A DNA stretch of 64,000 nt from assembly GCF_023573145.1 (NCBI RefSeq), contig NZ_CP097635.1, forward strand, positions 2,418,001 through 2,482,000, written 5' to 3'. The stretch comes from Aquincola tertiaricarbonis (lineage in GTDB: Bacteria > Pseudomonadota > Gammaproteobacteria > Burkholderiales > Burkholderiaceae_C). Within the stretch, counting starts at the first letter, position 1, and the number at the start of each line of letters is the position of its first letter. Positions 8,039 to 64,000 of the stretch are shown piece after piece. The notes under the pieces are model-generated. The model did no database searches. It worked only from the letters and a program-made list of their open reading frames with translations, and was not told where the DNA came from. The position numbers and the translations under genes are program-made.

Positions 8039-8097
8039 AACCCCGGATCGTCCCCCGCTGGCTACAGTGAAAACACCTCGAAGACAGGAGACATCCC

Positions 8098-9504: not shown

Positions 9505-9510
9505 CCGACC

Positions 9511-10344: not shown

Positions 10345-10376
10345 CCGCCTGCCCACTTTTCCATCCTCAAAAGCAC

Positions 10377-11252: not shown

Positions 11253-11256
11253 CGCG

Positions 11257-12156: not shown

Positions 12157-12158
12157 CC

Positions 12159-13004: not shown

Positions 13005-13008
13005 GCTC

Positions 13009-13671: not shown

Positions 13672-13732
13672 GGCCACGCTGAGTAAGCCGCTGCCTGGTA
13701 ACCGACCGGCTGCGCAGCCACCGACGGCCAGC

Positions 13733-14974: not shown

Positions 14975-14998
14975 TCCAAGAGCGCGTTAGCGCCAGCA

Positions 14999-17892: not shown

Positions 17893-17908
17893 GAGGCCAC
17901 TCCTGTGA

Positions 17909-17936
17909 GTAAGTTGCTATCAGAACGCTAGCTTAC
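17909..17936. promoter_or_regulatory. inverted repeat in promoter region of the TrlF/AlbA_2 cassette
   Basis: GTAAG (17909-17913) and CTTAC (17932-17936) flank an AT-richer 18-bp segment containing GCTAGC, immediately upstream of the regulator's ribosome-binding site. This is a plausible autoregulatory site for the ribbon-helix-helix protein. The short arms make it tentative. Confidence 0.35.
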
Positions 17937-47241: not shown

Positions 47242-48177
47242 TCAACGTTCCAGCACCCGCCGCCGGTACACGCCGATGTCGGCCGCCACGGTGGCCGCGA
47301 AGCGTTGCTGCCCGGCGGCATCGGGCACGCCCGAACCCAAGGCCTGCAGCCGCTGCTGAAGGGCGGGCTGGGCCAACGCCGCCAGCAGCGCGGCCTGCAG
47401 CCGATCGCGCGCCGGGGCCGGCGTGGGTGCGGCCACGAACCAGCCGGCCCAACCCAGCAGCGGCGCCTGCCTGCCACCGGCCGGGCTGGGCAGCCATTGC
47501 CCCAGGCGCGCCAGCACCTTGAGCTGGCCACGTGCCACCAGCGGCGTGGCCACCGGCTCGGCCACCACCGCGATGTCCAGATGTCCGCCGATGAGGTCGT
47601 TGACCATCACCGAAGAGCCCTTGTAAGGCACGCGCACCAGCGGCAGCCCCAGTTGGCGCTCGATCAGCGGCAGCGCCAGATGCTGCAGCGTCTCATGGCC
47701 CGGGTGCCCGGCCGACAGTGGCTTGCCGCGGCGGTGCGCAGCCGCGGGCAGTTGTTCCAGGCTCTGGGCTTCCAGCCCGGGCGCCGCTACCACCACGAAG
47801 TCCGCCGTCCCCACCTGGCCCAACGGCACCAGGTCGGTGGGTTGGAAACCGGCCTGCGGCACCAGCAGCGGCGCCAGGATCACCGCATTGACGTTGCCGG
47901 CCAGCACCGTGCAGCCATCGGCCGGCTGCCGCAGCACATGCTGCACTGCCAGGGCCCCCGACACGCCGCCGATGTTGCGCAGCACGAAGGTCTTGCCGGT
48001 CTCTTCGCTGGCTGCTTCGGCCACCAGCCGCATCACGGCGTCCATCGAGCCGCCGGCGGGGTAGGGCACCACCAGTGACACCAGCGGTCCCTCGCAAGGC
48101 CAGGCCGGCAGCGCCAGCGGGGCCAGCAGGCAGCCGATGGCCAGGCGCAGGCGGTGGAAACACAAACCTCTTCTCAC
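47242..48177 (-). CDS. Bug/TctC-type solute-binding protein
   Basis: 311 aa. Signal peptide 1-28. Family segments are LVVPYPAGGSMDAVMRLVAEAASE, VLRNIGGVSGALAVQHVLRQPADG, VPYKGSSVMVNDLIGGHLDIAVV and the C-terminal ALGSGVPDAAGQQRFAATVAADIGVYRRRV. It is more divergent than the other Bug protein here. The start is GTG at 48177. Ligand unknown; no transport partner genes nearby. Confidence 0.8.
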   Translation of the reverse strand: MRRGLCFHRLRLAIGCLLAPLALPAWPCEGPLVSLVVPYPAGGSMDAVMRLVAEAASEETGKTFVLRNIGGVSGALAVQHVLRQPADGCTVLAGNVNAVILAPLLVPQAGFQPTDLVPLGQVGTADFVVVAAPGLEAQSLEQLPAAAHRRGKPLSAGHPGHETLQHLALPLIERQLGLPLVRVPYKGSSVMVNDLIGGHLDIAVVAEPVATPLVARGQLKVLARLGQWLPSPAGGRQAPLLGWAGWFVAAPTPAPARDRLQAALLAALAQPALQQRLQALGSGVPDAAGQQRFAATVAADIGVYRRRVLER

Positions 48178-48325
48178 CGCCTGATCCTGCCACCAGCAAG
48201 GTGCGCCGCGGCCGCGGGTTCTACGGATGCGGCTTCGGCATCGCTTGGGCAGTTCAGAATGCCGCGCCCTTCAGACAGGGCCCGCGCCCACGTGGCGCGG
48301 AACGACGAACAACATGGGAGTGGAG

Positions 48326-50944
48326 ATGCTCAAAGCAAGGAGCGGCGCCTGGCGCCGAACCGCGCGCTGCGCGTTGGCAGCACTGGTCCTGAGCGCCTTG
48401 GCCGCCTGCGGCGGCGGCGGGGGCGGCAGCGGGTCTGGCAATGGCGAGGGCGCAGGCGCTGCGCAGGGGCCGGTGGCGGGTGCCGACTACTACCCGCTGA
48501 ACGTGGGCGACCGCTGGCTGTACCGGGACGGTGATGGCGTCACCATGCAGGTGGACGTCACCGGGACGCAGCCCGTGCAAGGCGGCACGGCCCTGGTGGT
48601 GAGCACCCAGGGCGGGGGTGACGTGCCCGACACCGCGCTGTACCTCAAGACGGCCACCGGCGTGCAGGTGCTGACCGAAGCCGGCAGCGACCCGACCCTG
48701 GCCGCGCTGGGCCGCCTGACCCTGCTGCGCCTGCCCCTGGTGAATGGCGACCGTTGGGTGATCGCCGACCAGACGCTGGCCGGCGTGCTGGACGTGGACG
48801 CCGACGGCAAGGCCGACACCGTGACCCTGCGCATGGACGGTGCCGTGCTGGGCTTCGAGACCGTGGAAGAGGCAGGCCGAAGCCATGCGCAATCGGCCCA
48901 TGTGCAGACGGTGCTGCGGCAGACGGTGCAGCTCAGCAGCACCGGCCAGACTGTGTCGAGCACGCTCACCTCCGACGACTGGTATGCGCCCAACGTCGGC
49001 CTGGTGCGCAGCCGCGTGGCCATCAGCGGCTCGGGTGGCAGCACCAACACCGTCAACCGCGTCACCGGCTGGCGCGTGGCGGGGCAGCGCAGCAGCAGCG
49101 GGGTGCCCACCATCACCAACCGGTTGCCTGCCGCCGGCGCGACGGTCTACGGCGTGGCCGTGCAGCAGCAGGTGGGCTTTGACCGCCCGATGGACACGGG
49201 CGTCGCCCCGGAGCGCGCTTTCAGCCTCACCGGCCCCGATGGGCAGCCGGTGCCCCTGAGGGGCTACTGGAACGACGGCGGGCGCACGCTCTACATCGAG
49301 GAGACCTACCCGCTGGCCAGCGGCCGCTACACCGCCCGTGTCAGCGCCGCGGCGGTGGACCTGATCGGCAACCCGGTGGGCGAGACCAGCTGGACCTTCG
49401 ATGTCGATGCCAGCGCGCCGCAGGCCACCTTGGTATCGCCCACCGCCGGCGCCCCCGAGCTGCCGCTGGACAGCGTCTTCGTGCTGCAGCTGGACGACGA
49501 CCCGGAACCGGCGTCGGTGAACGACAGCAACGTGACGCTGGGCGATGGCGTCCGGCAGGTCGAGGCCACCGTCACCTTGTCGGGTCGCACCATCACACTG
49601 CGGCCCAAGTCGCCGCTGCGCACCGGTGCCCGCTACACGCTGGCCGTCAACTACCTGGCGGATCGGAATGGCAACGTGGGGCAGATGCAGTACTGGCAGT
49701 TCACCGCCGACCCGGGGCGTTTCGCGGCGCCGCAGAAACTGCTGGCAGGCAGCACCGCGCAGGCCGTGACCATCGGCGATGTGGACGGCGACGGCCGTGC
49801 CGATGCCGTGTTCGCCACGGGCTACAACGCTTCCAGCGACGCTGGTGCCTTCAAGCTGGTGGTGCGGCGCGGGCTGGGTCAGGGCCGCTTTGCGGACGAG
49901 CAGCGCTACACCACCATCGCCGACTTCAGCAGCCAGATCGACTCGCTGACCGTGGCCGACCTGGATGGCAACGGCCGCCAGGCCGTGGTGCTGGCCGCAT
50001 CCGGCCGGGGGCTGCAGATCTTCCGCCAGCAGGCCGACGGCACGCTGGCCAGCAGCCAGGTGATCGACACCCGGGACAGCTACATCGTGCGTGTGGCCGA
50101 CATGAACGGCGATGGCCGCCCCGACCTGGTGAGCGCGCCCTTCGTCGGCAGCAGCGTGTCGGTCTGGCTGCAAGGCGCGGACGGTCGCTTCGGTGCAGCC
50201 ACCAGCGTCAGCCTGTCGGTGAAGTCGTTCGGTGACCTGTCGGTGGGCGACGTGGACGGCGACGGGCGCCCCGACATCCTGGCCACGAGCGATTCGTTCG
50301 ACGGACCGCTGGGCATTGTGCTGCGCACGCCGGACGGCGGCTACGCCAGCCCCTGGTACCCCAGCACCTTGCCGTCAGGCACCTGGGTGGACGGCCTGGC
50401 CATCGGCGATGTGACCGGCGACGGGCGGGCCGATGTGGTGCTGATGCAGACCTTCAATCAGCGCGTGACCGTGCTCGCGCAGGCGCCAGGCGGCGGCTTT
50501 GCCGCGCCGGTGGCCATGGCCAGCATCGGCAACCCGGCCCACGGCAAGGTGGCGGACCTGGATGGCGACGGCCGCAACGACCTGCTGGTGTGGAGCTGGG
50601 GCGGCTACCCCATCGGCTTGTACCGGCAGCGCAGCGACGGCCAGTTGGGCGCCCTGGAGAGCTGGCCGGTGAGCGAATACGGCAGCAGTGCGCCCGACCT
50701 GCTGGCCATCGGCGACCTGGACGGTGACGGCCGGCCCGATGTGCTCTACGGCGCGGACTGGCTGCGCCAGCGGCCGGTGCTGCGTGAAGAACCGGTGGCC
50801 GCCACGCCGCTGGCAGGGGCCCGCGCGCGGGCCATGGCGGCCGCACCGGTGCGCAGCGCTGCGCAGCCGGTCGCCGGCGGCTCGGGCCTTGGCCTGAATC
50901 AGCGGCTGTCGCGCCTGGTGCGCGGCAGCGCCGAGTCGCGCTGA
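48326..50944 (+). CDS. large FG-GAP/VCBS-repeat lipoprotein with Ig-like domain
   Basis: 872 aa. Lipoprotein signal with ALAACGGGG. After a Gly-rich linker comes a beta domain (about 45-265), a Big_5-type Ig-like domain (about 270-375: MDTGVAPERAFSLTG...LASGRYTARVSAAAVDLIGN), a second one (about 385-475), then at least six FG-GAP/VCBS repeats with calcium loops such as DVDGDGRADAV, DLDGNGRQAVV, DMNGDGRPDLV and DLDGDGRNDLL (about 480-830). This predicts a surface beta-propeller for adhesion or ligand binding. The ATG at 48326 has GGAG 5 bp upstream. Confidence 0.8.
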   Translation: MLKARSGAWRRTARCALAALVLSALAACGGGGGGSGSGNGEGAGAAQGPVAGADYYPLNVGDRWLYRDGDGVTMQVDVTGTQPVQGGTALVVSTQGGGDVPDTALYLKTATGVQVLTEAGSDPTLAALGRLTLLRLPLVNGDRWVIADQTLAGVLDVDADGKADTVTLRMDGAVLGFETVEEAGRSHAQSAHVQTVLRQTVQLSSTGQTVSSTLTSDDWYAPNVGLVRSRVAISGSGGSTNTVNRVTGWRVAGQRSSSGVPTITNRLPAAGATVYGVAVQQQVGFDRPMDTGVAPERAFSLTGPDGQPVPLRGYWNDGGRTLYIEETYPLASGRYTARVSAAAVDLIGNPVGETSWTFDVDASAPQATLVSPTAGAPELPLDSVFVLQLDDDPEPASVNDSNVTLGDGVRQVEATVTLSGRTITLRPKSPLRTGARYTLAVNYLADRNGNVGQMQYWQFTADPGRFAAPQKLLAGSTAQAVTIGDVDGDGRADAVFATGYNASSDAGAFKLVVRRGLGQGRFADEQRYTTIADFSSQIDSLTVADLDGNGRQAVVLAASGRGLQIFRQQADGTLASSQVIDTRDSYIVRVADMNGDGRPDLVSAPFVGSSVSVWLQGADGRFGAATSVSLSVKSFGDLSVGDVDGDGRPDILATSDSFDGPLGIVLRTPDGGYASPWYPSTLPSGTWVDGLAIGDVTGDGRADVVLMQTFNQRVTVLAQAPGGGFAAPVAMASIGNPAHGKVADLDGDGRNDLLVWSWGGYPIGLYRQRSDGQLGALESWPVSEYGSSAPDLLAIGDLDGDGRPDVLYGADWLRQRPVLREEPVAATPLAGARARAMAAAPVRSAAQPVAGGSGLGLNQRLSRLVRGSAESR

Positions 50945-51820: not shown

Positions 51821-52486
51821 TCAGCGCGCGGCCGGCAGCCGCAAGGCGTCGGCCTGCGTGCGCAGGTCCTCGGCCACGTTCTCGATGCGCACCTGTGTCA
51901 GCCCCAGCAGCGGGTCGCCCTGCAGGGCGGCTTCGGTCGGCGTCCTGGCGCGGTAGCGTTCCACCGCCTGCAGCGCCAACGCATGCAGCTGGCGGTTCTT
52001 GTCCTCGGCCCGGGCCAGGGCCTGGGTGGTGCGTTCCAGCAGCGCGCTCACGCTGGCCGTGGCGCGGCGGCTTTCGGCCAGTTGGGCCCGCAGCTCGGCC
52101 AGCTGGCCGGCGGCCTGGCGCTGGCGCTCGGCAGTGCTGGCGGCTTCGGCCTCGCGCTCGCTGCGCAGGCGCTCGGCCTGGGCCTGCTGGTCGGTGCGCA
52201 GGGCGGCCAGTTGCTGCTGCAGGCTGCGCAGCTGGGCCTGCAGGCGGTCGCGCGCCTGCTGCGCCGCCTGGGCCTGCGTCGCAGCGGCCTCCTTGTCGCG
52301 CTGCAGATCGCTGCGCTCGGCCTGCACCGTGGCCAGCTCGCGCCGGGTGTCGTTCAGCGCAGCCTGCGCGCGGCGCAGGGCCTCGCGGTCGCGGTTGGCG
52401 GTGTTGTCCTGGGCGGCCGCTGGCAGCGCGCAGGCGGCGGCCAGGACCAGCGCCCAGACCTGGGGTCTGCGTTCAGAACCGCGCAT
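51821..52486 (-). CDS. periplasmic coiled-coil protein of the adhesin/ExbB operon
   Basis: 221 aa. Signal peptide 1-25 (VWALVLAAACALPAAAQ), then an almost continuous coiled coil (about 30-165: DREALRRAQAALNDTRREL, AATQAQAAQQARDRLQAQLRS). A short C-terminal globular part follows. It is the last gene of the operon and overlaps the putative porin gene by 14 bp, which suggests coupled expression. A periplasmic spacer or scaffold is inferred. The ATG at 52486 directly precedes the signal peptide. Confidence 0.65.
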   Translation of the reverse strand: MRGSERRPQVWALVLAAACALPAAAQDNTANRDREALRRAQAALNDTRRELATVQAERSDLQRDKEAAATQAQAAQQARDRLQAQLRSLQQQLAALRTDQQAQAERLRSEREAEAASTAERQRQAAGQLAELRAQLAESRRATASVSALLERTTQALARAEDKNRQLHALALQAVERYRARTPTEAALQGDPLLGLTQVRIENVAEDLRTQADALRLPAAR

Positions 52487-54134
52487 TGAGGTCCACCTGC
52501 AGGGTGTCGAGCTTGTAGGGCGCATTGCTCAGGTACAGGCTGCCGTCGTCCAGGTTGCGGGTGCTGGTCCAGCGCAGGCCCACGCTGGCGTTGCGGTCGA
52601 ACGCGTAATGGCCGCCCAGGGTCCAGCCCTTGTAGTTGGTGCCGCCGCCGTTCCAGTTGGTGTCGGTGAAGGCGTCCAGCCAGGCATCACGCTCGAACTT
52701 GCGCATCGCCACGAAGGCCTGCCAGTCGCCGCGGTTGGCCAGGCGTTCATGGCCGGCCAGCAGGCGCAGCTGCAGGCCGGTGGTCTTGTCGGCCAGCTGC
52801 AGCTGCGGCAGTCCGGCGCGCTGGCGGATGTCGGCCAGGTCGAAGGCGCTGTTCTTCACCCAGTCCAGCGTCAGGCCCACCTGCACCGGATCGAAGTGCT
52901 TGAAGGTCAGGCCCGTGGTCAGGTTCACCGGCCGGAACTTCGAGGCCAGGCCCCACACCGGGCTGGCGGTGCTGGTGGGGTCGTTCAGGTTGATGAGCGT
53001 GTTGCCCTTCTGCCGGGCCGAGGCCGGGTACTGGCTGCTCTGGTAGGCCACCGTCCCTGCGCGCGGGCCGGTGGGCGGCGGTTCGGTGGCCTGCACGCCG
53101 GCGACGTGGCGGAAGTCGTACACCGCCAGGCCCACCCGCCATTGGGTGTTGGCGCCCAGGGCCGCATCGGCGCCCAGCTGCAGGCCGTAGAGCCACTTGT
53201 CCTTGCTGTCCACCGACAGTTCTTCCAGCGGGAAGGCGCCCGCCGTGGCAAAGGCATACACGCCGCTGCCCAGGTTGGTTTCGCCCTGCACGGCCACGCC
53301 GTCGAAGTTCAGGTCGTCGGGCCACAGCAGGTCGCTGCCGTAGAAGGGGTTGGGCATGCGGCCGCCGATGAAGCGCAGGTCATGCCGCGGCTCCCAGCGC
53401 AGCCAAGCGCGGTCCAGCACCACGCTGTACTTGTTGAAGTGGCTGCCCAGCGTCTGCGAGGTGGAGGTGGGCCCGCTGAGGTTGCCGGTGCTGATGCGGA
53501 TGGCGGTGCGCGTGTCTTCCGACAGCTTGGCGTTGACGCCGAAGCGCGCCCGCAGCGTGAGGCGGTTGCGGTCTTCGGTGGTGTTGGTCAGGTCGGGCGC
53601 CCAGGCCGGGGCGCCGGTCTGCGCGCGGTAGAACTCGGCCGGCAGGTTGTCGGCCGCGAAACGGTCGGTCTGCCAGCGCAGCCGCACGTCGCCCTCGAAG
53701 CCGATGGCCTTGACCCAGGCCGGCACCTGGCGGGCATCGGCCCAGCCTTCTTCGCGCGCCTGCTGCAGCACGTCGAGCTTGATCTCCTCGCGCATCTGCT
53801 GGCGCAGCGTCTCGGGCACGTAGGGGATGCGCACCACGCTGCCGCGGGCGCCGGCTGGCGGCGTGCCCCAGCCGCTGGCGGTCGGCGCGGTGCCGGCCTG
53901 GGCCTGCCGCAGCAGCCCGTCGGCGCGCTCGCGGCTCAGCAGGCCCTGGCCCACCAGCGCCTCGATCAGCGCCTGGGTGGTGGCGCGCAGCTTTTCCAGC
54001 TCGGCACGCTCGTCGGACTGGGCGCTGGCCGGCAGCGCGGCGGTGCCGGCCAGCGTCGCGGCCAGCAGTGTGCACAGCAGCGGCCGGCGCGGCGGCGTGC
54101 GTCGGTGGGGGGCGTGTAGGGGTCGCATGGTCAT
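52473..54134 (-). CDS. putative porin (outer-membrane beta-barrel)
   Basis: 553 aa. Signal peptide 1-38 (LLAATLAGTAALPASAQ). A short N-terminal coiled coil (ERAELEKLRATTQALIEAL) is followed by a long run of alternating amphipathic strands (about 130-553) ending in the aromatic C-terminus DLNARF typical of BamA-inserted barrels. VKAIGFEGDVRLRWQTDRFA and ISTGNLSGPTSTSQTLGSHFNKYSVVLDRAWLRWEP match the 'putative porin' family. It sits between TonB-like and coiled-coil genes; it may be the outer-membrane conduit of the system. The ATG at 54134 is used; a second ATG lies 6 bp downstream. Confidence 0.8.
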   Translation of the reverse strand: MTMRPLHAPHRRTPPRRPLLCTLLAATLAGTAALPASAQSDERAELEKLRATTQALIEALVGQGLLSRERADGLLRQAQAGTAPTASGWGTPPAGARGSVVRIPYVPETLRQQMREEIKLDVLQQAREEGWADARQVPAWVKAIGFEGDVRLRWQTDRFAADNLPAEFYRAQTGAPAWAPDLTNTTEDRNRLTLRARFGVNAKLSEDTRTAIRISTGNLSGPTSTSQTLGSHFNKYSVVLDRAWLRWEPRHDLRFIGGRMPNPFYGSDLLWPDDLNFDGVAVQGETNLGSGVYAFATAGAFPLEELSVDSKDKWLYGLQLGADAALGANTQWRVGLAVYDFRHVAGVQATEPPPTGPRAGTVAYQSSQYPASARQKGNTLINLNDPTSTASPVWGLASKFRPVNLTTGLTFKHFDPVQVGLTLDWVKNSAFDLADIRQRAGLPQLQLADKTTGLQLRLLAGHERLANRGDWQAFVAMRKFERDAWLDAFTDTNWNGGGTNYKGWTLGGHYAFDRNASVGLRWTSTRNLDDGSLYLSNAPYKLDTLQVDLNARF

Positions 54135-54148
54135 GGTCGTTTCGGGTT

Positions 54149-54811
54149 TCAGGCCGGCCGCAGGCTGAGGCGGAAGCGCATCGGCTGCGGCAGGTCGGGC
54201 GGGGGCGGCAGCTTCAGCTCGCGGGTGGCGTCGGCCAGCGCGCTGCGCAGTTCGTCGTCGGCCCGTGGCTGGCCGCTGGGCAGCAGCTCGAAGCGGCGGA
54301 TGGCGCCGTTGGGGTCGATCCACAGCTGAACCTCGGCGGTGGCCTGTGTGGTCTGGCCCTTGAGGTGGCGCTCGATCGCATCGCGCAGCAGCTGGCGGGC
54401 GGCCTGGGCATAAAAGCGTTCTTCGGCGCGGCTGGCACGTGTGCCGCCGCCGCCGTTGCCGGTGCCGGTGGTCAGCGGGCCGGTGGGCACGCCTTCCTGC
54501 GTGACGGGGCCGCCGGCCAGGCCGCCGGGTGCGTCGCCGGTGGGGCCTTCTTCTCGCACCTGCTGCGGCTGCGGCGGCTTGACGTCGGGCTGCGGCACCG
54601 GCTGCGGCTGCGCCTGGGTTTCCTTGGGCTCGGGGCGCTTTTCTTCCTTGGGCGGTGGCGGCGGCGGCGGCGGCGTGTCGGGCAGCAGCGCAATACGCGC
54701 GACCTGCCGCTGCGGCGCCGGCGGACTGCCGGCCAGGCCGCGCAGCCACCACACCAGCGCGGCGACCAGCAGCACCACGGCCACGAGGCCCAGGAGCTTC
54801 CTGCTGCTCAT
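54149..54811 (-). CDS. TonB-like energy-transducer protein
   Basis: 220 aa. A single N-terminal membrane helix (LLGLVAVVLLVAALVWWL) is followed by a proline-rich periplasmic linker (PPPPPPPPKEEKRPEPKE to about residue 95) and a C-terminal TonB/TolA-like domain (about 125-220) with ERHLKGQTTQATAEVQLWIDPNGAIRRFELLPSG. It would couple the ExbB/ExbD motor to an outer-membrane partner, probably the putative porin or adhesin. The start at 54811 overlaps the ExbD gene by 4 bp. Confidence 0.8.
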   Translation of the reverse strand: MSSRKLLGLVAVVLLVAALVWWLRGLAGSPPAPQRQVARIALLPDTPPPPPPPPKEEKRPEPKETQAQPQPVPQPDVKPPQPQQVREEGPTGDAPGGLAGGPVTQEGVPTGPLTTGTGNGGGGTRASRAEERFYAQAARQLLRDAIERHLKGQTTQATAEVQLWIDPNGAIRRFELLPSGQPRADDELRSALADATRELKLPPPPDLPQPMRFRLSLRPA

Positions 54812-55209
54812 GTGCCGAACCTGCCGGTGATGAAGGCCATGTTCACGCCCAGCCGGTTGCACAGGTCCACCACGGCGATGACGCCGCCGTACTGCGCGCC
54901 GGCCTCGCCCTTGATGGCGACGGACATCTGCGCATCGCGCGCCTTGGCGGCCTGCAGCCGCGGCTCCAGCTCGGCCAGCGTGACCGGTGCGCCGTTGGCC
55001 AGCAGCGCGCCGCCCTGCATCACCTGCAGCACGATGAGTTCGTGCTGCTCCTTCGCGGGCTGGTTGCTGGGCTTGGGCACGCTGATGGTGAGCCCCTGCA
55101 CCGAGGCGGTGGTCATCAGGATGAACACCACCAGCAGCACGTAGGCCAGGTCCAGCATCGGCGTGACGTTGATGGTGTCGTAGGGCTTGGCGTCGGTGTT
55201 GACTTGCAT
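54808..55209 (-). CDS. exbD: ExbD/TolR family protein (second copy)
   Basis: 133 aa. The N-terminal membrane helix carries the essential proton-path aspartate D20 in TPMLDLAYVLLVVFILMTTASVQG; the periplasmic domain ends VDLCNRLGVNMAFITGRFGT. It forms the stator/rotor axle with the ExbB-like channel. It differs clearly from the neighbouring copy, so the pair may form a heteromeric ExbD, as reported for some TonB systems. Confidence 0.85.
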   Translation of the reverse strand: MQVNTDAKPYDTINVTPMLDLAYVLLVVFILMTTASVQGLTISVPKPSNQPAKEQHELIVLQVMQGGALLANGAPVTLAELEPRLQAAKARDAQMSVAIKGEAGAQYGGVIAVVDLCNRLGVNMAFITGRFGT

Positions 55210-55219
55210 GGCAGGCCCT

Positions 55220-55621
55220 TCACTTGGCGCGGGTGGTCACCAGGCCGATCTCGGCGATGTCCAGGCGCTTGGCGATGTCCAGCACCTGCACCACCACGTC
55301 GTACTGCGCGGCGGTGTCGCCCTTGAGCACCACCGGCAGTGCCGGGTTGGCGGCCTTGTAGTCGGCCAGGCGGTTGCGCAGCTCGTCCAGCGTCACGGGA
55401 TAGGCGTCGAGGTACAGCGCACCGTCGGCGGTGACGGTGATGGCGCGGGTCTGCGGCTTGGCCAGGTTGTTCTGCGCCGTGGTGGCCGGCGAGTTCACCT
55501 TCACGCCCTGCACCGAGGCGGTGGTGAGGATGATGAAGGTGACCAGCAGCACGTACGCCAGGTCCAGCATCGGCGTGATGTTGATGTCGTCGTAGGGCTG
55601 GTTGTCGGCGCGGACGTCCAT
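55220..55621 (-). CDS. exbD: ExbD/TolR family protein (first copy)
   Basis: 133 aa. D20 lies in TPMLDLAYVLLVTFIILTTASVQG; the periplasmic domain contains VTADGALYLDAYPVTLDELRNRL and QVLDIAKRLDIAEIGLVTTRAK. The ATG shares one base with the stop of the ExbB fusion gene, so translation is coupled. It works with the ExbB domain as a proton-driven motor unit in the inner membrane. Confidence 0.85.
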   Translation of the reverse strand: MDVRADNQPYDDINITPMLDLAYVLLVTFIILTTASVQGVKVNSPATTAQNNLAKPQTRAITVTADGALYLDAYPVTLDELRNRLADYKAANPALPVVLKGDTAAQYDVVVQVLDIAKRLDIAEIGLVTTRAK

Positions 55622-57324
55622 CAGCGCGCCCCGTACAGCTCGGCCACGCGGGTGATGAACTCGTCGACGAAGATCTGCATGTCGGCCGAGATGTTCTTGA
55701 TGCGCGCGGCCAGGTAGTTGTAGCCAAACAGCGCCGGGATCGCGACGCCCAGGCCGGCCACGGTGGCCAGCAGCGCGGCGGCGATGCCGGGCGCGATGGC
55801 GTTGACGTTGACGTCGCCGGCCGCGGCGATGGCCGCGAAGGTGATCATCACGCCCACCACCGTGCCCAGCAGGCCGAGGAAGGGGCCGCCCGAGATGGCG
55901 ATGGTCAGCAGCACCATCTGGGCATTGAGGCGGTGGCTTTCGCGCACCAGGTCGGCGTCCACCGCGGCCTTCACGGCGTCCAGCGAAGCGCCCGACAGCG
56001 GCGGCGCGCCGGCCACGCCCACCTGGCGCTTGGCCAGCTCGCGCACGCCGGCCTGGTACAGCCGGAACAGCGGCGACTGCGCATGCGCGGCGGCGGCCTG
56101 GTCGAGCAGCAGCAGGTCGTGCGTGGCACCGCGGAAGCGCTCCAGGAAGCCGTGGTTGGCCTTGTCGTCGCGCCCCACCATCACCGCCTTGGTCACCATC
56201 ACCCAGGCCGCGACCACGAACATCACCCCCAGGATGCCGATGACCACCCAGGCATCCAGCGTGAGGTTGGACACCAGGATGCCGATGTAGCCATGGCTCT
56301 GGCCTTCGGCGGCTTCGCCGCTGTCCTTGGTGGTGGCCAGCAGCCGGGCTTCGGCGCTTTGCGAGGCGGCGGCCAGCTGCAGCCAGGCGGGGCTGCGGGC
56401 CACCGACGAGACCTGCACTTCGTCCACCACGCCACGCAGGCCTTCGCCCACGCGCAGCTCGCCTTCGATCAGCGGTGTGGCCACGTCGGCCTTGGCCACC
56501 GCCGCACCGTTGACGTAGAGCTGCGCCTGGCCGTTGCCGACGGTCAGCGCCACCTGCGTCCAGGCAGTGGGTGCCACCTCGCCGCCGGCCAGGCGCGTGC
56601 CGCCCACCCGCGCGGCCAGCTGGCCGCCCTCCAGCGTCAGGCTGATCGGGCCCCAGGCCAGCAGCGTGCCGCGGGCCACCTCGTCGGAGCGCAGCCACAG
56701 CGACAACGTGGTGGCACCACCGGCGGCGATGCGCAGCGCCGGTTGCGCCGGCCACACCAGCGGCTGGCCGGCCAGGCGGGCGCCGCCGCCCAGCAGCGCG
56801 TTGGCTTCGGGCGTGATGGCGTCGGCGGCTTTCCAGCGTCCGTCGTGGCTGCTGCCTGCGTTGTCGCGGCCATCGAAGTGGATGGCCGCCAGCGTGGCCG
56901 CATCGAAGCCGGTGCCGCTGTCGGCCGCGGCCGGCGCGGCGCTGTGGCCGGCGTAGGCGTACAGCATGTTCTTGTCGCTGCCCGGCAGCACCTGCGGCAC
57001 CTGCACCCACACCACGGCCAGCTCGTTCACCGGGTCCCAGCGCTCGATTCGAAAGCTCAGCGGCGTCTTGTCGTCACCCGCCACGAAGCGCAGGTCGCTG
57101 CCGTCTTCCTTGGCGCTCAGGAAGTCGAAGTTGCCGCTGTGCAGCCGCACCGCCAGCGGCAGCGCGGCCACCGTCTCCTGCGTGGTCACGCCCTGGGCGC
57201 TGGTGTTGAGCACGATGCGCGTGCGTTGGGTCCAGTCCTTGTTCCACCAGGCGCTGGCGGCCAGCGGCAGCGCGGCGGCCAGCAGGCCGAGGACGAAGGG
57301 GCGGAGCTTGCGTGCGAGTGGCAT
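55621..57324 (-). CDS. DUF2341-LamG-ExbB fusion protein (MotA/TolQ/ExbB proton channel)
   Basis: 567 aa. Signal peptide 1-25. DUF2341 (about 28-130: WWNKDWTQRTRIVLNTSAQG, LRFVAGDDKTPLSFRIERWD) is followed by a LamG/concanavalin-like domain (about 145-310). The ExbB/TolQ channel comprises TM 356-377, a cytoplasmic segment 380-468, and two long helices 470-500 and 508-535 with GPFLGLLGTVVGVMITF and GIAAALLATVAGLGVAIPAL. Normal ExbB is ~240 aa without the periplasmic half. It lies 29 bp behind the adhesin gene and before two exbD genes. Confidence 0.85.
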   Translation of the reverse strand: MPLARKLRPFVLGLLAAALPLAASAWWNKDWTQRTRIVLNTSAQGVTTQETVAALPLAVRLHSGNFDFLSAKEDGSDLRFVAGDDKTPLSFRIERWDPVNELAVVWVQVPQVLPGSDKNMLYAYAGHSAAPAAADSGTGFDAATLAAIHFDGRDNAGSSHDGRWKAADAITPEANALLGGGARLAGQPLVWPAQPALRIAAGGATTLSLWLRSDEVARGTLLAWGPISLTLEGGQLAARVGGTRLAGGEVAPTAWTQVALTVGNGQAQLYVNGAAVAKADVATPLIEGELRVGEGLRGVVDEVQVSSVARSPAWLQLAAASQSAEARLLATTKDSGEAAEGQSHGYIGILVSNLTLDAWVVIGILGVMFVVAAWVMVTKAVMVGRDDKANHGFLERFRGATHDLLLLDQAAAAHAQSPLFRLYQAGVRELAKRQVGVAGAPPLSGASLDAVKAAVDADLVRESHRLNAQMVLLTIAISGGPFLGLLGTVVGVMITFAAIAAAGDVNVNAIAPGIAAALLATVAGLGVAIPALFGYNYLAARIKNISADMQIFVDEFITRVAELYGAR

Positions 57325-57353
57325 GGGGGCGGAATGCAAGAGGGCGAAGGGAT

Positions 57354-60300
57354 TCAGTTCGGCCCGTCGCCGAAGCCGAGGAAGTCGAGGAACACGATGC
57401 GGCGCGGGGCGCCGGCGCGGTCGGCCGCGCTGTCGAGGGCCGAGGTGGCGGCGTTGCCGGCGGCGGTGGCGGCCTGGCCCAGCGGTGCGAAGGCGGCGGT
57501 GGTGCCACCGGTCACGGTGGGTGCCGGGGCGCCGATGCTGGCGCCGCCGACGTTCAGGTTGTCCGCACCGACGAAGCGCACCGCGCCGAAGAAGGCGTTG
57601 CCGCGCGAGACGATGCCGGCGTCGCCCGCGTTGATCTCGCCACGCGGCGCATACAGGTCCAGCGTGCTGTCGGCGTTGAGCACCGCGATGCCGCTGCCGG
57701 TGAAGGAGCCGGAGGTGTCCACCACCAGGTTGCCGTTGCTGTCCAGCCGCAGCACCGGCGCCGGGGCGCCGGTGACGGTCTTGGCGCCGCGGCCAGCGTC
57801 GATGTTGCCGTCCGACGACCACAGCAGCACGTTGCCCTGCTTGAGCGTGAACACCCGCGACTGGTTGACCTCGAAGTGGCTGGCCGTGGCCGCGAAGATG
57901 CTGCCGCCGTCCACCGTCACGATGCCCAGCTGCGAAGCCGGCTTGCCGGCACCGGCGCCGGACACCAGCTCACCCGCGTTCACCGCGCCACCGGGCGCCA
58001 GCAGCGTGATGTCGGCCTGCTGCAGCGTGCGGATCTGGCTGGAGGGCAGGCGGATGTCGCCTGCCGCCCGCGCACCCGGGAACAGGGTTTCCAGTGCCAG
58101 GTAACCGGCGGCGTAAGCCGCCTCGCGCGGGCCGTCGGCCAGGCTGGCGGCCTGGCGGCCGGCTTCGCGCAGCTCGGTGGCCAGCACCTGCCGCAGCCAG
58201 GGCAGCTGCCGTTCGGTGGGCAGGGCCGCGAAGCTTTCCAGGGCCGCCGCCAGCGAGGCGGGCGCCTGACCGTTGACGCGTGCCATGTACTGCTGCAGCC
58301 CGGCCGCATAGGGGTTGCCGGCCCGCGCCGCCTGGGTGGCGACGAAGGCGGCGCGGTCGGCCGCCGGCCGGGCCTCGAAGGCCAGCAGCAGCAGCGCCCG
58401 CGCGGCCTGGGCCTGCAGGGCCTCGCCGGCAGTGGCCAGCGCGGCACGGGCCTGCTCGGTGCTCTTGTCGCGCCAGGCCGGCACGGTGCGCAGCACGCGG
58501 GCCAGCGCCGCATCCTGCTGCGGGCCCAGCAGCGCCTGGGCCTGCGCCAGCTGCTGGGCGGCGGGCAGCGCATCAAAGGCCGCGGCCTCGGTGGCGCCGC
58601 CCAGCCAGGCCTGCAGCGCGCCCGGCTGCGACAGCAGGCCCGAGACGCCCAGCGCCGCAAAGCCGCTGGCCAGCGCCTGCTGCGTGTCGCCCGGCTGCCA
58701 GCCGGCCACGATGGTGAGGTCGGCCGCGCGTGCGGGCAGCAGGGTGCTGCTGCGCTGGTTGCCGCTGGCCACCAGGCCGGTGGTGTTGCCCAGGTCCAGC
58801 TGGCGGCCGGCCAGCAGCAGCGCGTCACCAGGGCCGGCGATCTCGATGCCATTGACGCCGCTCAGCGGGCTGCCCACGATGTCGCGGCCGGCCTGCAGCA
58901 GGCTCAGCTCGCTCACGGGCAGCCACAGCGCGCGGCCATCGTCGCCGATGCCGGCGTAGCGCTGGTCCTGGTGCTGCGCGGTCAGCTGGCTGCTGGCACC
59001 CGGCAGGCGCAGGTCCTGGCCGGCCACCAGGCGCACGGGGCGTGCCGACGTGAGGTTGCTGCCCACCGTCAGATCGCCCTGTGCGGCCACCAGATGCACC
59101 GGGTCGCGGCTGCTGCGGTCCAGGCCGCCGCCGTCGTTGACGGTGTTCAGGCGCAGCTGCTCGGCCACGGCGGCCGGGTCGTTGATCGTGGGCAGGACGC
59201 TGCGGGTGGCGTTCACCGTCACCGGCTGGCTCAGCGTCAGGTCCTGGCCGGCCAGCAGGGCCAGCGCGCCATCGGCGCCGGGCTGCTGCAGCAGCGGGCC
59301 ACGCACTTCCACGTTGCCGTGGGGCGCGGCCATGCGCAGCCAGGCCGGCACCACACTGCCCAGCAGCAGCGCGTCCGGGCCCAGCGAGCCCGATTCGGTC
59401 TGCTGCGCCTCGCCGTCGTAGCGCAGGTTGCCGGCGGTGCTCACCAGGTCCAGCCGGGCCAGCGGCGCGGTGTCGTCGATGACCAGCCCGCTGCTGTTGC
59501 CCAGCGAAGGGAAGGTGAGGTGCTCGGCCCGCACGCTGGCCACCCGCAGGTCGCCACGCGCCTGCACCGCCACCTGCGTGTTGCCGTGCACCAGCTGCGG
59601 CGCCAGTGCGGCGCTGCCACTCACACTGCCGCTCCCCGCCACGACGGCGCGGCCGGCCTCCAGCCACAGGCTGCTGCCGCTGGCATACAGCAGGCCGCCT
59701 GCAACGTCGCGGCCTGCCTGCAGTTCCACCGAACCGCCGCCGTAGCGGGCGCCGCTGCGGCCGTCCTGCGCCACCCAGCCGCTGCTGGCGGCCGCGGCAT
59801 TCAGGTTCAGGCTGTCACGGCCGGCGTGCACGCTGACGTCGCCGCCGCCGAAGGTGGCCAGGCCGCCGTCGAACAGGTCGTAGCGCGACCACCAGACGCC
59901 GCTGTTCTCGATGCGGCCACGCCACCACCAGCGGTTGATGGCCGCATCGGCGGCGGGCAGGGGCTGGCCGATCACGTCCTGGCCGGCGCTCACGGTGATG
60001 GCACCGCCGCCTTGCAGGTAGGGCTCCACATAGCCCAGCTCGGTGGAGGCGGGCACCAGGCCGCTGAAGGCGTCCAGCATCGGCGCGCCGGCGCCGCCCT
60101 CGGTGGGCAGGCCGGTGGTGTAGACGGCGCTGCGCGCATCGGCCAGCTCGACGTTGCGTGCGGCGGCCAGCGTGAGCGCGCCGGTGGTGCTGCGCAGCAG
60201 CACGCCATCAGGTGCCGTGCTGCTGCCGATGGTGAGGCTGCCGGTGGCGGTGCTGCGCAGCGTGGCGTCGCTGCGGGCGGCGGTCAGGTCGGCGCCGGCC

Positions 60301-63300
60301 ACCAGGGTGATGGCGCCGGCCGAGCCGGCCTGGGGCAGCCACTCACGTTCGCCGCCGTACTCGTCGGCCGCGGCAAAGCCGCTGTGCAGCGACTGCGCGA
60401 TCACCAGGTCCTGCGCGGCGCGCAGCGTGACGGCGGCGCCGCCCACCTGCACGGCGCCCAGGGCGTTCTGCGCTGCCGGCGGCAGGGCGAGCTGCCAGGG
60501 CGTCGACAGGGTCAGCGTGGAGTCCGAGCGCACTTCCACGCCGGCGCGCACCGTGACGCTGGCGCCGGCCGGCAGCCGGTCGCCGAACAACCGGCTGGCG
60601 ATGGCGGCGGCGCGGGCCTGGGTGGCGAAGGCATCGCTGTCGGCATTGATCGTGGCCACGCCGATCTGCGGCGTGGGCGCGGGCGGCAGGCCCGGGCCGG
60701 GGGCCGGTGAAGGCGATGGGGAGGGCGACGGCGAGGGCGATGGCGTGCCGCCCGAGCCCGGGCTGGGCGCGGGCGTGGGACCGGGCGCCGGGCTCGGCGA
60801 AGGTGAAGGCGTCGGCGTGGGCAGCGGCACCGGCGGCGAGGGCGGTGGCGGCGGCGCCGGCTGCGTGCTGGGCTCCAGCGGCGGCGTCGGCGGCACCTGA
60901 TCGCCGGTGGTCGGGCCGTTGCCCGGCGACGTGGCCAGCGCACGCACCTGCTCGATCCGCGCACCCAAGGATGAGATGGTGGGCAGCGGCGGCGCGGGGG
61001 GTACCTGATCGCCGGTGGTCGGGCCATTGCCGGGCGAAGGGCCGGCGGGCGGCGCGGGCGGCGCAGGCGTGCCCGGGCTCGGCGCCGGGGGTGGCGGCGG
61101 CGGAGGCGGGGGCGGAGGGGGCGGCGGAGGCGGGGGTGGCGGCGGTGGGGGAGGGGGAGGCACAGGCGCTTCACCGCCCGGCTCCTCGCCACCGGGGATT
61201 TCGCCACCGGGCTCCTCGCCGCCCACGGGCGGTTCCTGGCCCGGGGTGTAGCCTTCGATGAGCTCCTGGCCGTTGTAGACCTTGACCGCTTCCACCTCGG
61301 CGCGGCCCAGGCCCAGCAGCGTGCTGCCGACTGCGGCGATGGCCACGTCCTGGCTGCTGCCTTCACCGATGCGCGGCGCGCGCAGTTCCAGCACGCCCGG
61401 GCTGGCCAGCGGGCCGCCGGGTCGCAGGTCGATCGTGGCGCCTTCTTCCAGGCGCAGCCAGCCTTCGCGGCTGTTCAGGCTGATGCGGCTTTCGCCCACC
61501 AGGCTGCGGCTGCTCAGCAGCGCGCCGCTGCGCAGCAGCACGTCCTGCCCGGCCGACAGCGCGATGCTGGCCGGGGCGCTGCGCCCGCTGGCCACCAGGC
61601 GGCCTTCTATGGTCAGCGTGCCGGCATCGGCCGACATCGACAGTTGCCGGGCCGCCAGCTCGCTGCCGGCGGCCAGCGTCAGGTCGCCCTGTCGCTGGCG
61701 CAGCGCGATGCGCTCGGCCAGGTTGTTGCCGCCGCCCACGGTGGCCGCCAGCGCAGCCAGGTCCAGGCCCTGGCCGGCGTCCACTTCCAGGCTGCCGCCG
61801 CGCGCCTGGGCACCGCTGGCGCGGGCCTGCAATGCGCCTTCGACGCGCACCTGGCCCTGGGTGGCCACCAGCTCGATGCGGCCGGCATGGCCCTCGCCCA
61901 CGGCGCTGGCATCCAGCAGCGAGCCGGCCGCAAGCCGCACGCTGCCGGCCTGGCTGACCAGGGCGATGCGGCCGGCGGACAGGTCCACCGTGCTGCCGTC
62001 CAGCGTGCTGCGCAGGCCGGTGGCCCGCACGCTGCCGCCCGCTTCCAGCGCCAGGTCGCCCACGGCCTGCAGGCTGACCTCACCCACCGGCGCCAGGATC
62101 TGCCCGGCATGCACCAGGCTGCCACCGCTGGCAAAAGCCAGGCGGCCACCCGCGCCCGCAGCCGGCAGTTCGGCGGCCGGCACACCGGCGGCGGTCGGGG
62201 GCAGGGCTTCGATGCGCAGGTCGCCCGCGGACCGCCATTCGGCCTGCCCGCCCAGCGCGGTCTGCACCCGCTGCGACTGCAGGGTCAGGCCACCGCCGGC
62301 GTTGAGCGTGCCCACGCCTTCGGCCTGGATGACGCCGCCGCTGGTCAGCACGGTGTGCGCAGCGGCGATGCCCACGCTGCCGTCGCCCCATGCCAGCAGG
62401 CGCTGCGCCTGCAGCTGCAGCGTGCCCACGGGCGCCGTGGTGCTGGCCATGTCGGCCACCACGCCGGTGGTGTTGGCCAGCCGCAGCTCGCCGGCCCGCA
62501 GCGAGGCGCCCGCATCGGCCAGGGTCTTCAGCAGCGGCGTGTCCAGCGCCAGCGATCGCAAGCCGGTGCTGCCCAGGCTGGCGCCGGCGCCGAAGTCGAT
62601 GGATGAATAGCTGCGCAGCGACAGCCGCTGCGTGCCCGACAGGGCCGCGGCCAGGTCGGTGGTGAGCTGCAGCGCCTGCGGATCGAACCGGCCCTCCTGC
62701 TGCGGCAGGCCCACCTCGATGTGACCGGCGGCCACCGTCACGTCGGCCGCCACCGGGCGCAGGCCTGCGGCCACCGTGGTGCGCTGGGTGGCGTCCAGCA
62801 GCAGGCTGCCGCCAGCGGCGGACAGGCTGACGTCCCGGTCGATGGACAGGGTGCCGGTCTTGCGCAGGGCGGCGCTGCGCTGCACCTGGGCATCGGCCGT
62901 GGCGCTGGCGCGCAGCAGGGCGCCGTCGCCGGTGACTTGGTAGTCGCGGGTGGTGGCGACGTCGGTGGCGCCGGAGCCGGAAGCCGTGGTCAGCAGGCCG
63001 ACGCCGGCGCCCAGGCTCAACTGCTCGGTGGCGGCCAGCAGCAGGTCGGTGCCGCGCAGCACCGAGTCGGTGTCCTTGAGCGCGTTGAAGCGCAACTCGC
63101 GCGCGGTGACGGTGAGCAGGTCGGGCGTCGCGCCGGGCCGGGCGCCCAGCACCAGCGTCTGCGCGCCCAGCGCATTGAGCTGCGCGACCGACAGCGACAG
63201 CACCCCCGCCTCGGCCGACGGCGCGCCGATGGCCATGCGCTCGGCCGCGATGAAGGCCTGCCCGCCCCGTGCGCCCACTGTGGCCGCATCGGCACCGAAG

Positions 63301-64000
63301 CGGGCATTGCCGGCCAGCGAAGCCTGCTGGGCGGCCAGTACCAGCGTGCCGCCATCGGCGGGCAGCGGCGGGCGTGGCTGGTCGGCGGCCTGGGCCGCCT
63401 CGCTGTAGAAGCGGGTGGCGGTGGTGGTGCGTACCTCGGAGGACAGCCGGGCCTTGTCCGAAGGCGTGATGCGCCAGGTGCTGGACAGGGGGTCGCGCAA
63501 GGTGGTGCCCGCGCTGCCGGTGAGCGCGCCCACCAGGCTGCTGCCGTCGGGCTGTGGCAGGCTGGTGCCGAATTGCAGCGGCGTGCCGCCGGCCTGCGGC
63601 TTGACGAGGAAGGCCCCCGGCAGCAGCGCATAACGCGCCGGCAGCAGCGTGTACGCGCCTTCGGGCAGCGGGCCGCCGGGGCCGACGATGAGCTGCCGGC
63701 CGGCGGCCGGCGCCGTGACGGACCAGGTGGCGTCGTAGGGCGCGCCGTTGCGCACCGTGGGCACGATGGCGTAGGCGCCATCGCCGCCGGCGAACACGTC
63801 GGTGGAGCCGCCGGGGCCGGGCACGAACAGATAGCTCAGCACCTCGCCACCGCCCGACAGGTCGAGCAGCGCGTCGCGCTGCACGTCCACCGCGCCAGCG
63901 GTGGATGACAGCGTGATCTGCTTGGCCGGCACGCTGCCCGCGGCGTGGCCATCGCCATCGGGCAGCAGCAGGCCGGCGGCCGACACCGAGGTGATGCTGC
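57354..64000 (-). CDS. giant filamentous-haemagglutinin-like adhesin (5' end outside window)
   Basis: More than 2210 codons; the frame is still open at the right edge, so the N-terminal secretion domain is not visible. Most of it is repetitive beta-helix sequence with alternating GSLLLDA, ALQARASGAQARGGSLEV and VTLRAAQDLVIAQSL-type strands, as in FHA/TPS exoproteins. A Pro-rich hinge (about 60680-61215) includes some 25 consecutive prolines and two SPGNGPTTGDQVPP repeats. The C-terminus is RRIVFLDFLGFGDGPN. It is followed by the ExbB/ExbD/TonB/porin genes, unlike the classical TpsB arrangement. Surface adhesion is inferred. Confidence 0.8.
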   Translation of the reverse strand, partial: SITSVSAAGLLLPDGDGHAAGSVPAKQITLSSTAGAVDVQRDALLDLSGGGEVLSYLFVPGPGGSTDVFAGGDGAYAIVPTVRNGAPYDATWSVTAPAAGRQLIVGPGGPLPEGAYTLLPARYALLPGAFLVKPQAGGTPLQFGTSLPQPDGSSLVGALTGSAGTTLRDPLSSTWRITPSDKARLSSEVRTTTATRFYSEAAQAADQPRPPLPADGGTLVLAAQQASLAGNARFGADAATVGARGGQAFIAAERMAIGAPSAEAGVLSLSVAQLNALGAQTLVLGARPGATPDLLTVTARELRFNALKDTDSVLRGTDLLLAATEQLSLGAGVGLLTTASGSGATDVATTRDYQVTGDGALLRASATADAQVQRSAALRKTGTLSIDRDVSLSAAGGSLLLDATQRTTVAAGLRPVAADVTVAAGHIEVGLPQQEGRFDPQALQLTTDLAAALSGTQRLSLRSYSSIDFGAGASLGSTGLRSLALDTPLLKTLADAGASLRAGELRLANTTGVVADMASTTAPVGTLQLQAQRLLAWGDGSVGIAAAHTVLTSGGVIQAEGVGTLNAGGGLTLQSQRVQTALGGQAEWRSAGDLRIEALPPTAAGVPAAELPAAGAGGRLAFASGGSLVHAGQILAPVGEVSLQAVGDLALEAGGSVRATGLRSTLDGSTVDLSAGRIALVSQAGSVRLAAGSLLDASAVGEGHAGRIELVATQGQVRVEGALQARASGAQARGGSLEVDAGQGLDLAALAATVGGGNNLAERIALRQRQGDLTLAAGSELAARQLSMSADAGTLTIEGRLVASGRSAPASIALSAGQDVLLRSGALLSSRSLVGESRISLNSREGWLRLEEGATIDLRPGGPLASPGVLELRAPRIGEGSSQDVAIAAVGSTLLGLGRAEVEAVKVYNGQELIEGYTPGQEPPVGGEEPGGEIPGGEEPGGEAPVPPPPPPPPPPPPPPPPPPPPPPPPPAPSPGTPAPPAPPAGPSPGNGPTTGDQVPPAPPLPTISSLGARIEQVRALATSPGNGPTTGDQVPPTPPLEPSTQPAPPPPPSPPVPLPTPTPSPSPSPAPGPTPAPSPGSGGTPSPSPSPSPSPSPAPGPGLPPAPTPQIGVATINADSDAFATQARAAAIASRLFGDRLPAGASVTVRAGVEVRSDSTLTLSTPWQLALPPAAQNALGAVQVGGAAVTLRAAQDLVIAQSLHSGFAAADEYGGEREWLPQAGSAGAITLVAGADLTAARSDATLRSTATGSLTIGSSTAPDGVLLRSTTGALTLAAARNVELADARSAVYTTGLPTEGGAGAPMLDAFSGLVPASTELGYVEPYLQGGGAITVSAGQDVIGQPLPAADAAINRWWWRGRIENSGVWWSRYDLFDGGLATFGGGDVSVHAGRDSLNLNAAAASSGWVAQDGRSGARYGGGSVELQAGRDVAGGLLYASGSSLWLEAGRAVVAGSGSVSGSAALAPQLVHGNTQVAVQARGDLRVASVRAEHLTFPSLGNSSGLVIDDTAPLARLDLVSTAGNLRYDGEAQQTESGSLGPDALLLGSVVPAWLRMAAPHGNVEVRGPLLQQPGADGALALLAGQDLTLSQPVTVNATRSVLPTINDPAAVAEQLRLNTVNDGGGLDRSSRDPVHLVAAQGDLTVGSNLTSARPVRLVAGQDLRLPGASSQLTAQHQDQRYAGIGDDGRALWLPVSELSLLQAGRDIVGSPLSGVNGIEIAGPGDALLLAGRQLDLGNTTGLVASGNQRSSTLLPARAADLTIVAGWQPGDTQQALASGFAALGVSGLLSQPGALQAWLGGATEAAAFDALPAAQQLAQAQALLGPQQDAALARVLRTVPAWRDKSTEQARAALATAGEALQAQAARALLLLAFEARPAADRAAFVATQAARAGNPYAAGLQQYMARVNGQAPASLAAALESFAALPTERQLPWLRQVLATELREAGRQAASLADGPREAAYAAGYLALETLFPGARAAGDIRLPSSQIRTLQQADITLLAPGGAVNAGELVSGAGAGKPASQLGIVTVDGGSIFAATASHFEVNQSRVFTLKQGNVLLWSSDGNIDAGRGAKTVTGAPAPVLRLDSNGNLVVDTSGSFTGSGIAVLNADSTLDLYAPRGEINAGDAGIVSRGNAFFGAVRFVGADNLNVGGASIGAPAPTVTGGTTAAFAPLGQAATAAGNAATSALDSAADRAGAPRRIVFLDFLGFGDGPN
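61085..61170. repeat. poly-proline-encoding G/C tract
   Basis: On the plus strand an almost pure G/C tract of repeated GGCGG/GGGGG units encodes on the minus strand about 25 consecutive prolines. It is a low-complexity, slippage-prone region with potential for G-quadruplex formation on the non-coding strand. Confidence 0.8.

Follow-up and report, generated by a model that had tools for sequence, protein, structure and literature searches.

A DUF3739-class two-partner secretion adhesin encoded with its own Ton-type motor and porin in Aquincola tertiaricarbonis, and a candidate docking strand at its C-terminus

We analyzed a 64,000-nt stretch of the Aquincola tertiaricarbonis genome (the window; assembly GCF_023573145.1, contig NZ_CP097635.1, positions 2,418,001 to 2,482,000, or G000:C1:2418001-2482000; genome of 7.1 Mb in 4 contigs) that encodes a two-partner secretion (TPS) adhesin, TpsA, together with an ExbB-ExbD-ExbD-TonB motor, an outer-membrane porin and a coiled-coil protein (Table 1). 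An initial annotation, made from the sequence of the window, described seven co-directional genes that overlap or lie close together, and this is borne out by their Pfam families and by intergenic gaps of -53 to +29 bp from TpsA through the coiled-coil gene; from this spacing, the genes look like a single co-transcribed operon. All the Ton-motor domains of the operon score above the Pfam cut-off: MotA_ExbB (1.9e-28) in an ExbB fusion that also carries DUF2341 (7.8e-13) and Laminin_G_3 (9.4e-12), ExbD in two consecutive proteins, and TonB_2. The ExbD membrane segments (INITPMLD and INVTPMLD, read by eye) hold an aspartate that we take to be the proton-channel residue, and the lectin-like DUF2341-Laminin_G_3 parts of ExbB would presumably ring the periplasmic side of the pentamer. 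The coiled-coil protein matches no Pfam family above the cut-off. The initial annotation saw no TonB-dependent receptor plug, and we agree: no plug family appears among the Pfam matches of the operon proteins, and the porin model predicts N-terminal helices followed by barrel strands. On these grounds, a plugged TonB-dependent receptor was rejected as an identity for the porin.

Contrary to the initial annotation, the adhesin does have a TpsB partner. The window cuts TpsA, making the apparent absence of TpsB a window-edge effect. The full TpsA has 3662 amino acids (aa), an N-terminus that is signal-peptide-like by eye, a TPS domain (PF05860, residues 71-314, 9.7e-24) at the N-terminus, which the annotation had proposed to inspect, and a C-terminal DUF3739 domain (1.4e-29). 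Just beyond the window, 46 bp upstream of TpsA, lies a TpsB of the ShlB/FhaC type (546 aa; POTRA_2 2.3e-17, ShlB 9.2e-13). An adhesin without TpsB was accordingly rejected. That TpsB and TpsA form a TPS pair is well supported by these domain matches and, since TpsB is present, the motor is not a substitute for it. The annotation had named a dedicated TpsB immediately outside the window, combined with an adhesin unaffected by loss of the motor, as speaking against its proposal; the first of the two is what the genome holds.

Table 1. Features of the operon and its surroundings. Positions are those of the window unless a stretch beyond it (L002, L003) is named.
Feature	Position	Strand	Description
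TpsA adhesin, C-terminal part	57354..64000	-	about 2214 of 3662 aa; open frame and Pfam
TpsA start (ATG)	L002:17342		beyond window edge
TpsA TPS domain			residues 71-314; beyond window edge
TpsA proline-rich segment	60660..61241	-	residues 2368-2561; 86 Pro in 194
TpsA DUF3739 domain	57525..57836	-	residues 3503-3606; Pfam
TpsA C-terminal strand-like motif	57366..57398	-	IVFLDFLGFGD; residues 3649-3659; proposed docking strand
ExbB	55621..57324	-	567 aa; signal-peptide-like N-terminus; DUF2341 and Laminin_G_3 part
ExbD 1	55220..55621	-	133 aa; ExbD 1.4e-24 (Pfam)
ExbD 2	54808..55209	-	133 aa; ExbD 2.4e-21 (Pfam)
TonB-like protein	54149..54811	-	220 aa; N-terminal hydrophobic segment, Pro-rich spacer, TonB_2 C-terminal domain (3.9e-6)
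TonB-like protein, C-terminal domain	54152..54421	-	last 90 aa; Pfam
Porin_5 outer-membrane barrel	52473..54134	-	553 aa; N-terminal helices, no plug
Porin segment VVRIPYVPE	53811..53837	-	conserved, between helices and barrel; second candidate docking site
Coiled-coil protein	51821..52525	-	234 aa; probably exported; alternative start 52486
Protein X	L003:293-1735		upstream of TpsB, beyond window; no Pfam family
PEP-CTERM protein	L002:19098 to ~20258	that of TpsB	upstream of TpsB, beyond window
PEP-CTERM protein	L003:1924-2664	that of TpsB	upstream of TpsB, beyond window
LuxR-type regulator	L003:2930-3931		adjoining operon, beyond window
Subtilase	L003:3923-5497	other strand	beyond window

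Related loci were collected with an alignment of ExbB relatives as the query against contigs that represent each species by one genome, and the best 80 of at least 497 confirmed candidates (48-67% identity) were retained, the neighbors being found with profiles of the window proteins; drawn with ExbB, this set leans towards the unit. TPS genes (TpsA parts or TpsB) and TonB were each found in 78 of the 80 loci, Porin_5 and a pair of ExbDs each in 76, and the coiled-coil protein in 71; most of the missing genes fall on contigs with a nearby end. Three loci (L065, L066, L067) have a single ExbD followed by TonB, and one (L032) has no coiled-coil match. The genes are co-directional throughout, save for one reversed adhesin (L064), and a whole-genome search for TpsB in 30 of the loci gave, every time, a best match that precedes ExbB by 10.5-12.9 kb on its own strand. 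Gene order, the conservation of which the initial annotation had proposed to check, is kept in most of these loci, and its recurrence exceeds chance. The genes very likely form one functional unit, and it is well supported by sequence that the conserved unit of the TPS pair also takes in ExbB-ExbD-ExbD-TonB and the porin.

To profile the families involved, we searched the same 249 Pseudomonadota genomes for ShlB, DUF3739, DUF2341 and Porin_5. ShlB, the TpsB-type transporter, occurs in 114 genomes, DUF3739 in 10, DUF2341 in 9 and Porin_5 in 13, of which 10 are strong matches (E < 1e-100) and 3 weak or partial (G145, G198, G232). The ten genomes with a strong Porin_5 are the ten with DUF3739, and all nine DUF2341 genomes fall within them (hypergeometric probabilities of about 1e-15 or less, uncorrected for kinship); ExbB, ExbD, TonB and porin are present in all ten. 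In the tenth DUF3739 genome (G230) the contig begins inside ExbB and there is no ShlB match, and in G219 the unit is split, with TpsB-porin-coiled coil on one contig and ExbB-ExbD-TonB on another (L102, L103). As controls we used 20-kb stretches around other TpsBs, 6 from the window's genome (G000) and 14 from nine other genomes; none of the 20 contains a profile match to ExbB, ExbD, Porin_5 or DUF3739, and in G000, which has at least 7 ShlB matches, the six other places among those listed have no ExbD within 100 kb. The genome profile and the motor-free controls thus tie the motor and the porin to one adhesin class: judging from these profiles, they accompany DUF3739 adhesins and not TPS in general. 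The operon resembles classical two-partner secretion of the FhaB/FhaC type in its TPS domain and its transporter with POTRA_2 and ShlB, and differs in its motor, absent from 20 of 20 control TPS stretches.

This linkage bears on two alternative explanations for the motor. It might be an ordinary extra Ton system that lies beside adhesin genes and serves TonB-dependent receptors elsewhere, as would fit the match of its ExbB, ExbD and TonB domains to common families and the 8 ExbD matches that G000 totals; the phylum-wide linkage to one adhesin class, the 0 of 20 control stretches and the co-variation of adhesin tail and TonB presented below make this very improbable. The motor might also drive or assist TpsA secretion by acting on the POTRA domains of TpsB. 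We hold this to be a distinctly doubtful explanation, since most TPS loci are motor-free (ShlB in 114 of the 249 genomes, this set in 10) and the POTRA part shows a partial correlation with the adhesin tail of 0.08, versus 0.51 for TonB (36 loci, see below), even though TpsB directly precedes ExbB in 7 of the 11 motor loci of the ten profile genomes (in the remainder, TpsA intervenes in G000 and G019, G219 is split and G230 cut) and a single PAO1 promoter is described as transcribing pdtB with exbB2D2-tonB4 (PMC4971064).

After DUF3739 and a variable linker, the DUF3739 adhesins end in a short hydrophobic motif, approximately [LI][LI][TS]V[DE]VLG[FLY]G. This predicted strand-like C-terminal motif is a new feature shared by the class. 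Scored with a leave-one-out profile, it lies above the 99% level of shuffled tails in 81 of 85 adhesins (69 near, the window's included, 12 distant and 4 from plasmids), a count to be read knowing that the motif was defined on the same set and that leaving out a single sequence retains its close relatives. The four tails below that level are three Methylophilus variants (IVTVKTIRLED) and one other. A stricter fixed pattern matches 47 of the 69 near and 11 of the 12 distant tails, where shuffles lead one to expect about 2 and 0.4. From 13 of the 20 control stretches we took 14 adhesin-like frames, chosen by the TPS profile or simple motifs; five run off the stretch, and none of the nine complete ones reaches the motif level (best 2.0 versus 3.7), although at least one of the nine (L205:17414-19390, on the opposite strand) might not be a genuine adhesin. 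We also scanned seven further proteins of the operon, and not one of them has the motif at that level. On a Klebsiella plasmid (L107), the motif occurs twice in each of the two adhesins (1-2343 and 5545-17910), as VEILG and as VQVVG or VQVLG.

If this tail docks on the C-terminal domain of TonB, both are expected to change together. We compared pairwise distances in 61 of the 70 loci with a DUF3739 match, leaving out loci without a pattern-matching tail or lacking a piece, and used the last 95 aa of the TonB-like protein. Tail distance follows that of the TonB C-terminal domain with a rho of 0.77 and a partial correlation of 0.60 given the TonB N half, ExbB channel, ExbB periplasmic part, ExbD, porin barrel, porin N part and DUF3739; the partials of these seven other pieces lie between -0.12 and 0.12. 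Omitting DUF3739 gives a TonB partial of 0.61, reached by 0 of 300 label permutations. The TonB figure is 0.54 after thinning to 30 loci and 0.55 without the five Methylophilus loci. When TpsB is added (36 loci), TonB has a partial of 0.51 and the POTRA part of TpsB one of 0.08, and no other piece exceeds 0.15. For 26 sham 11-mers taken out of the DUF3739 region, the maximum is 0.31 and the median 0.11. Divided by tail class, the 34 loci of class B retain a TonB partial of 0.52.

A natural exchange in Methylophilus points the same way. Two tail types occur there, VTVKTIRLED (L073, L080, L081) and ISVDVIGIG (L076, L078), and the TonB C-terminal domains are 26-31% identical between tail types and 69-96% within them. 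Between the same types, identity is 79-90% for TonB N halves, 90-95% for ExbB channels, 96-99% for ExbD, 73-76% for the coiled coil and 57-66% for DUF3739; the porin barrel shows 53-58% between and 68-97% within types. Since about 10 kb separate the tail and the TonB gene in these loci, a single short exchange does not explain both changes. Together, the co-variation and this natural swap point to the adhesin tail as the probable docking site of the motor; on this indirect evidence, we see an even chance that the TonB-like protein itself contacts the tail.

Several observations weigh against tail docking. Within class A, whose 27 loci hardly differ in their tails, TonB has a partial of only 0.17, versus 0.23 for the porin N part and 0.20 for the TonB N half. 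The porin barrel also follows the tail (rho 0.61 overall; in a set of 363 pairs whose ExbBs are similar, 0.80 versus 0.84 for TonB), so that the partner of the tail may be the porin, alone or jointly with TonB. The loci share ancestry, which label permutation does not preserve, so the figures above are not probabilities. We also take the tail motif not to be a canonical TonB box. Finally, TPS secretion is held, in a published account of these systems, to need no energy source (PMC5422565).

The behavior of the porin barrel leads to a further alternative, in which the motor energizes the porin: the TonB-like protein would open Porin_5 through its N-terminal periplasmic part and TpsA would be a passive antenna, as in HxuA-HxuB-HxuC of Haemophilus. 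There, too, a TPS pair is encoded with a TonB-linked uptake function, but HxuC is described as a TonB-dependent transporter within the TPS operon (PMC5422565), whereas the operon studied here has its own ExbB, ExbD and TonB and no plug was found in it. The adjacency of the TonB and porin genes in most loci, the identity of the ten strong-Porin_5 and ten DUF3739 genomes, a conserved VVR(V/I)PYVPE segment ahead of the barrel and the tracking of tail type by the barrel all accord with this explanation. It is nonetheless unlikely in our judgment, given that neither Pfam nor the porin model reveals a plug, that the partials with the tail are 0.05 for the barrel and 0.12 for the N part against 0.60 for TonB, and that G219 carries the porin and the motor on separate contigs.

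A unit of this kind is already known from Pseudomonas, where its motor is unexplained. In P. aeruginosa, the regulon of the sigma factor VreI (PUMA3) and PhoB is reported to include pdtA, phdA, pdtB, exbB2, exbD2, tonB4, PA0696 (a putative outer-membrane porin) and PA0697, and the same report terms exbB2-exbD2-tonB4 a still uncharacterized putative TonB system (PMC7035377). The PAO1 PphdA promoter is described as transcribing phdA, pdtB, exbB2D2, tonB4 and PA0696-PA0701 under the control of PhoB in phosphate starvation (PMC4971064), and a 2009 paper already remarked that, in several genera, PUMA3 goes together with homologues of TPS, ExbBD and PA0696 (PMC2729926). Read by function, pdtB-exbB2-exbD2-tonB4-PA0696-PA0697 (PMC7035377) gives TpsB, ExbB, ExbD, TonB, a putative porin and one more gene, the order seen here. 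The P. aeruginosa unit differs in having one ExbD, a TpsA transcribed apart, and vreAIR and PhoB control, as far as described (PMC4971064), while the window unit has two ExbDs, TpsA within the operon, a LuxR-type regulator, and upstream PEP-CTERM proteins and a putative PstS-fold protein. The likeness rests on published gene order and on the sequence of Pseudomonas G127 (relatives P. mandelii and P. frederiksbergensis), where TpsB, DUF2341-ExbB, ExbD, TonB, Porin_5 and coiled coil are consecutive; the PAO1 proteins were compared by description. No vreA-vreI-vreR was found among the six open reading frames scanned in 8.5 kb of L003, which comprise PEP-CTERM, LuxR, subtilase, aminotransferase and Ribonuc_L-PSP families plus protein X. 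Plasmids of Klebsiella, Methylosinus and Cupriavidus carry ShlB-ExbB-ExbD-TonB-porin-hypothetical with a single ExbD, and genes for YbjN and a peptidylprolyl isomerase lie in the vicinity; on the Klebsiella and Methylosinus plasmids, a sigma factor and DUF4880- or FecR-domain genes adjoin the unit. Among the open-licence papers listed as matches, judged by title and start of abstract, ExbB-ExbD-TonB appears with a TPS pair only for the P. aeruginosa regulon, and the word DUF3739 is absent from the open-licence literature searched.

Other counterparts are more distant. Ton and Tol motors share the ExbB, ExbD and TonB_2 domains, and our ExbB profile matches TolQ and ExbB structures; the window unit differs from them in the large DUF2341-Laminin_G_3 part of its ExbB, its two ExbDs and the absence of any receptor found in the operon. 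Myxococcus is reported to secrete PopC via the TonB-dependent transporter Oar (PMC6434023), an earlier case of protein export through a Ton-linked pore, although with another outer-membrane pore and substrate and outside type V secretion. The Veillonella attachment porin OmpM1 differs from ours, with 16-17% identity in the top three rows of the comparison and no SLH domain among the Pfam matches here.

Gene neighbors provide evidence of function. A relative of protein X was modeled with a predicted PstS-type fold, and all 32 stretches have X in a conserved place upstream of TpsB. In its alignment (A3), R, GS, D and SGT positions are nearly invariant; by eye we liken them to the phosphate-ligand residues of PstS, one ligand Asp of which is not kept. 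In the two Methylophilus loci scanned for such genes (L081:2978-9231 and L076:2851-9080), Exo_endo_phos/LTD, PEP-CTERM and 5'-nucleotidase-type (5_nucleotid_C) proteins lie between adhesin and motor. These neighbors suggest that the purpose of the unit is phosphorus scavenging rather than adhesion as such, and the PstS-fold protein, the secreted nuclease and the 5'-nucleotidase-type protein make it reasonably probable that the unit serves this function in the clade. The PhoB control described for the P. aeruginosa counterpart (PMC4971064) agrees with a role in phosphorus supply. On the other side of the balance, X was not found in the five plasmid loci (L105-L109) or in the profile-genome stretches except G019 and is therefore, as far as seen, not part of every version of the unit. 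Upstream of TpsB, G000 has no match of at least 11/14 to the Pho box consensus, and over the 32 stretches 21 such matches compare with about 14 expected, none standing out, although a scan by consensus may miss such regulation. No secretin lies nearer than about 230 kb in the window's genome, and P. aeruginosa tpsA, tpsB, PA0695 and PA0696 mutants overexpressing VreI are reported to show wild-type virulence in zebrafish (PMC2729926).

Weighing these lines of evidence, we consider the case evenly poised that the products of the operon form a machine for cell-surface phosphorus scavenging in which two-partner secretion is coupled to a motor. TpsB would export TpsA N-terminus first, leaving the DUF3739 part, the variable linker and the terminal strand in the periplasm or at the pore. 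The dedicated TonB-like protein would then bind the terminal strand with its C-terminal domain, by analogy with the binding of a receptor TonB box by TonB, and the ExbB/ExbD proton motor would pull on it. Such a pull could hold, cycle or retract the filament, regulating its release, or pass a filament-held ligand to the porin. More remotely, the ligand might be phosphorus-rich (DNA, nucleotides or organophosphate), with the secreted nuclease, nucleotidase and PstS-fold neighbors freeing and binding phosphate that enters through the porin. Ton motors are described as drivers of plugged receptors, and we advance tentatively, as somewhat short of an even bet, the view that the C-terminal strand of DUF3739-class TpsA is a TonB-box analogue by which a Ton motor acts on a type V passenger, forming a proton-driven, tethered and possibly retractable phosphorus-scavenging filament. 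At the core of the initial annotation's proposal was a surface filament supplied with proton-motive force; the linkage to one adhesin class, the motor-free controls and the tail-TonB co-variation lend support to this idea, although its premise of a missing TpsB was wrong. It had also regarded this as a job not usually assigned to Exb/TonB systems, which is less unprecedented than claimed, since the association is already in print for P. aeruginosa and relatives. The conserved TPS and Ton unit suggests an exception to energy-free type V export, and names a contact for testing, that between the last ~15 adhesin residues and the dedicated TonB C-terminal domain. If true, it would give a function to a motor described as still uncharacterized in the P. 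aeruginosa phosphate-starvation regulon (PMC7035377).

Other observations concern the surroundings of the operon. The genome encodes two exosortases in addition to the two PEP-CTERM proteins of Table 1. Within the window, a 905-aa protein with Big_5 and FG-GAP repeats is encoded beside the operon (48227-50944, + strand), and a LysR-type regulator (46267-47229) lies beside a 311-aa open reading frame (47242-48177).

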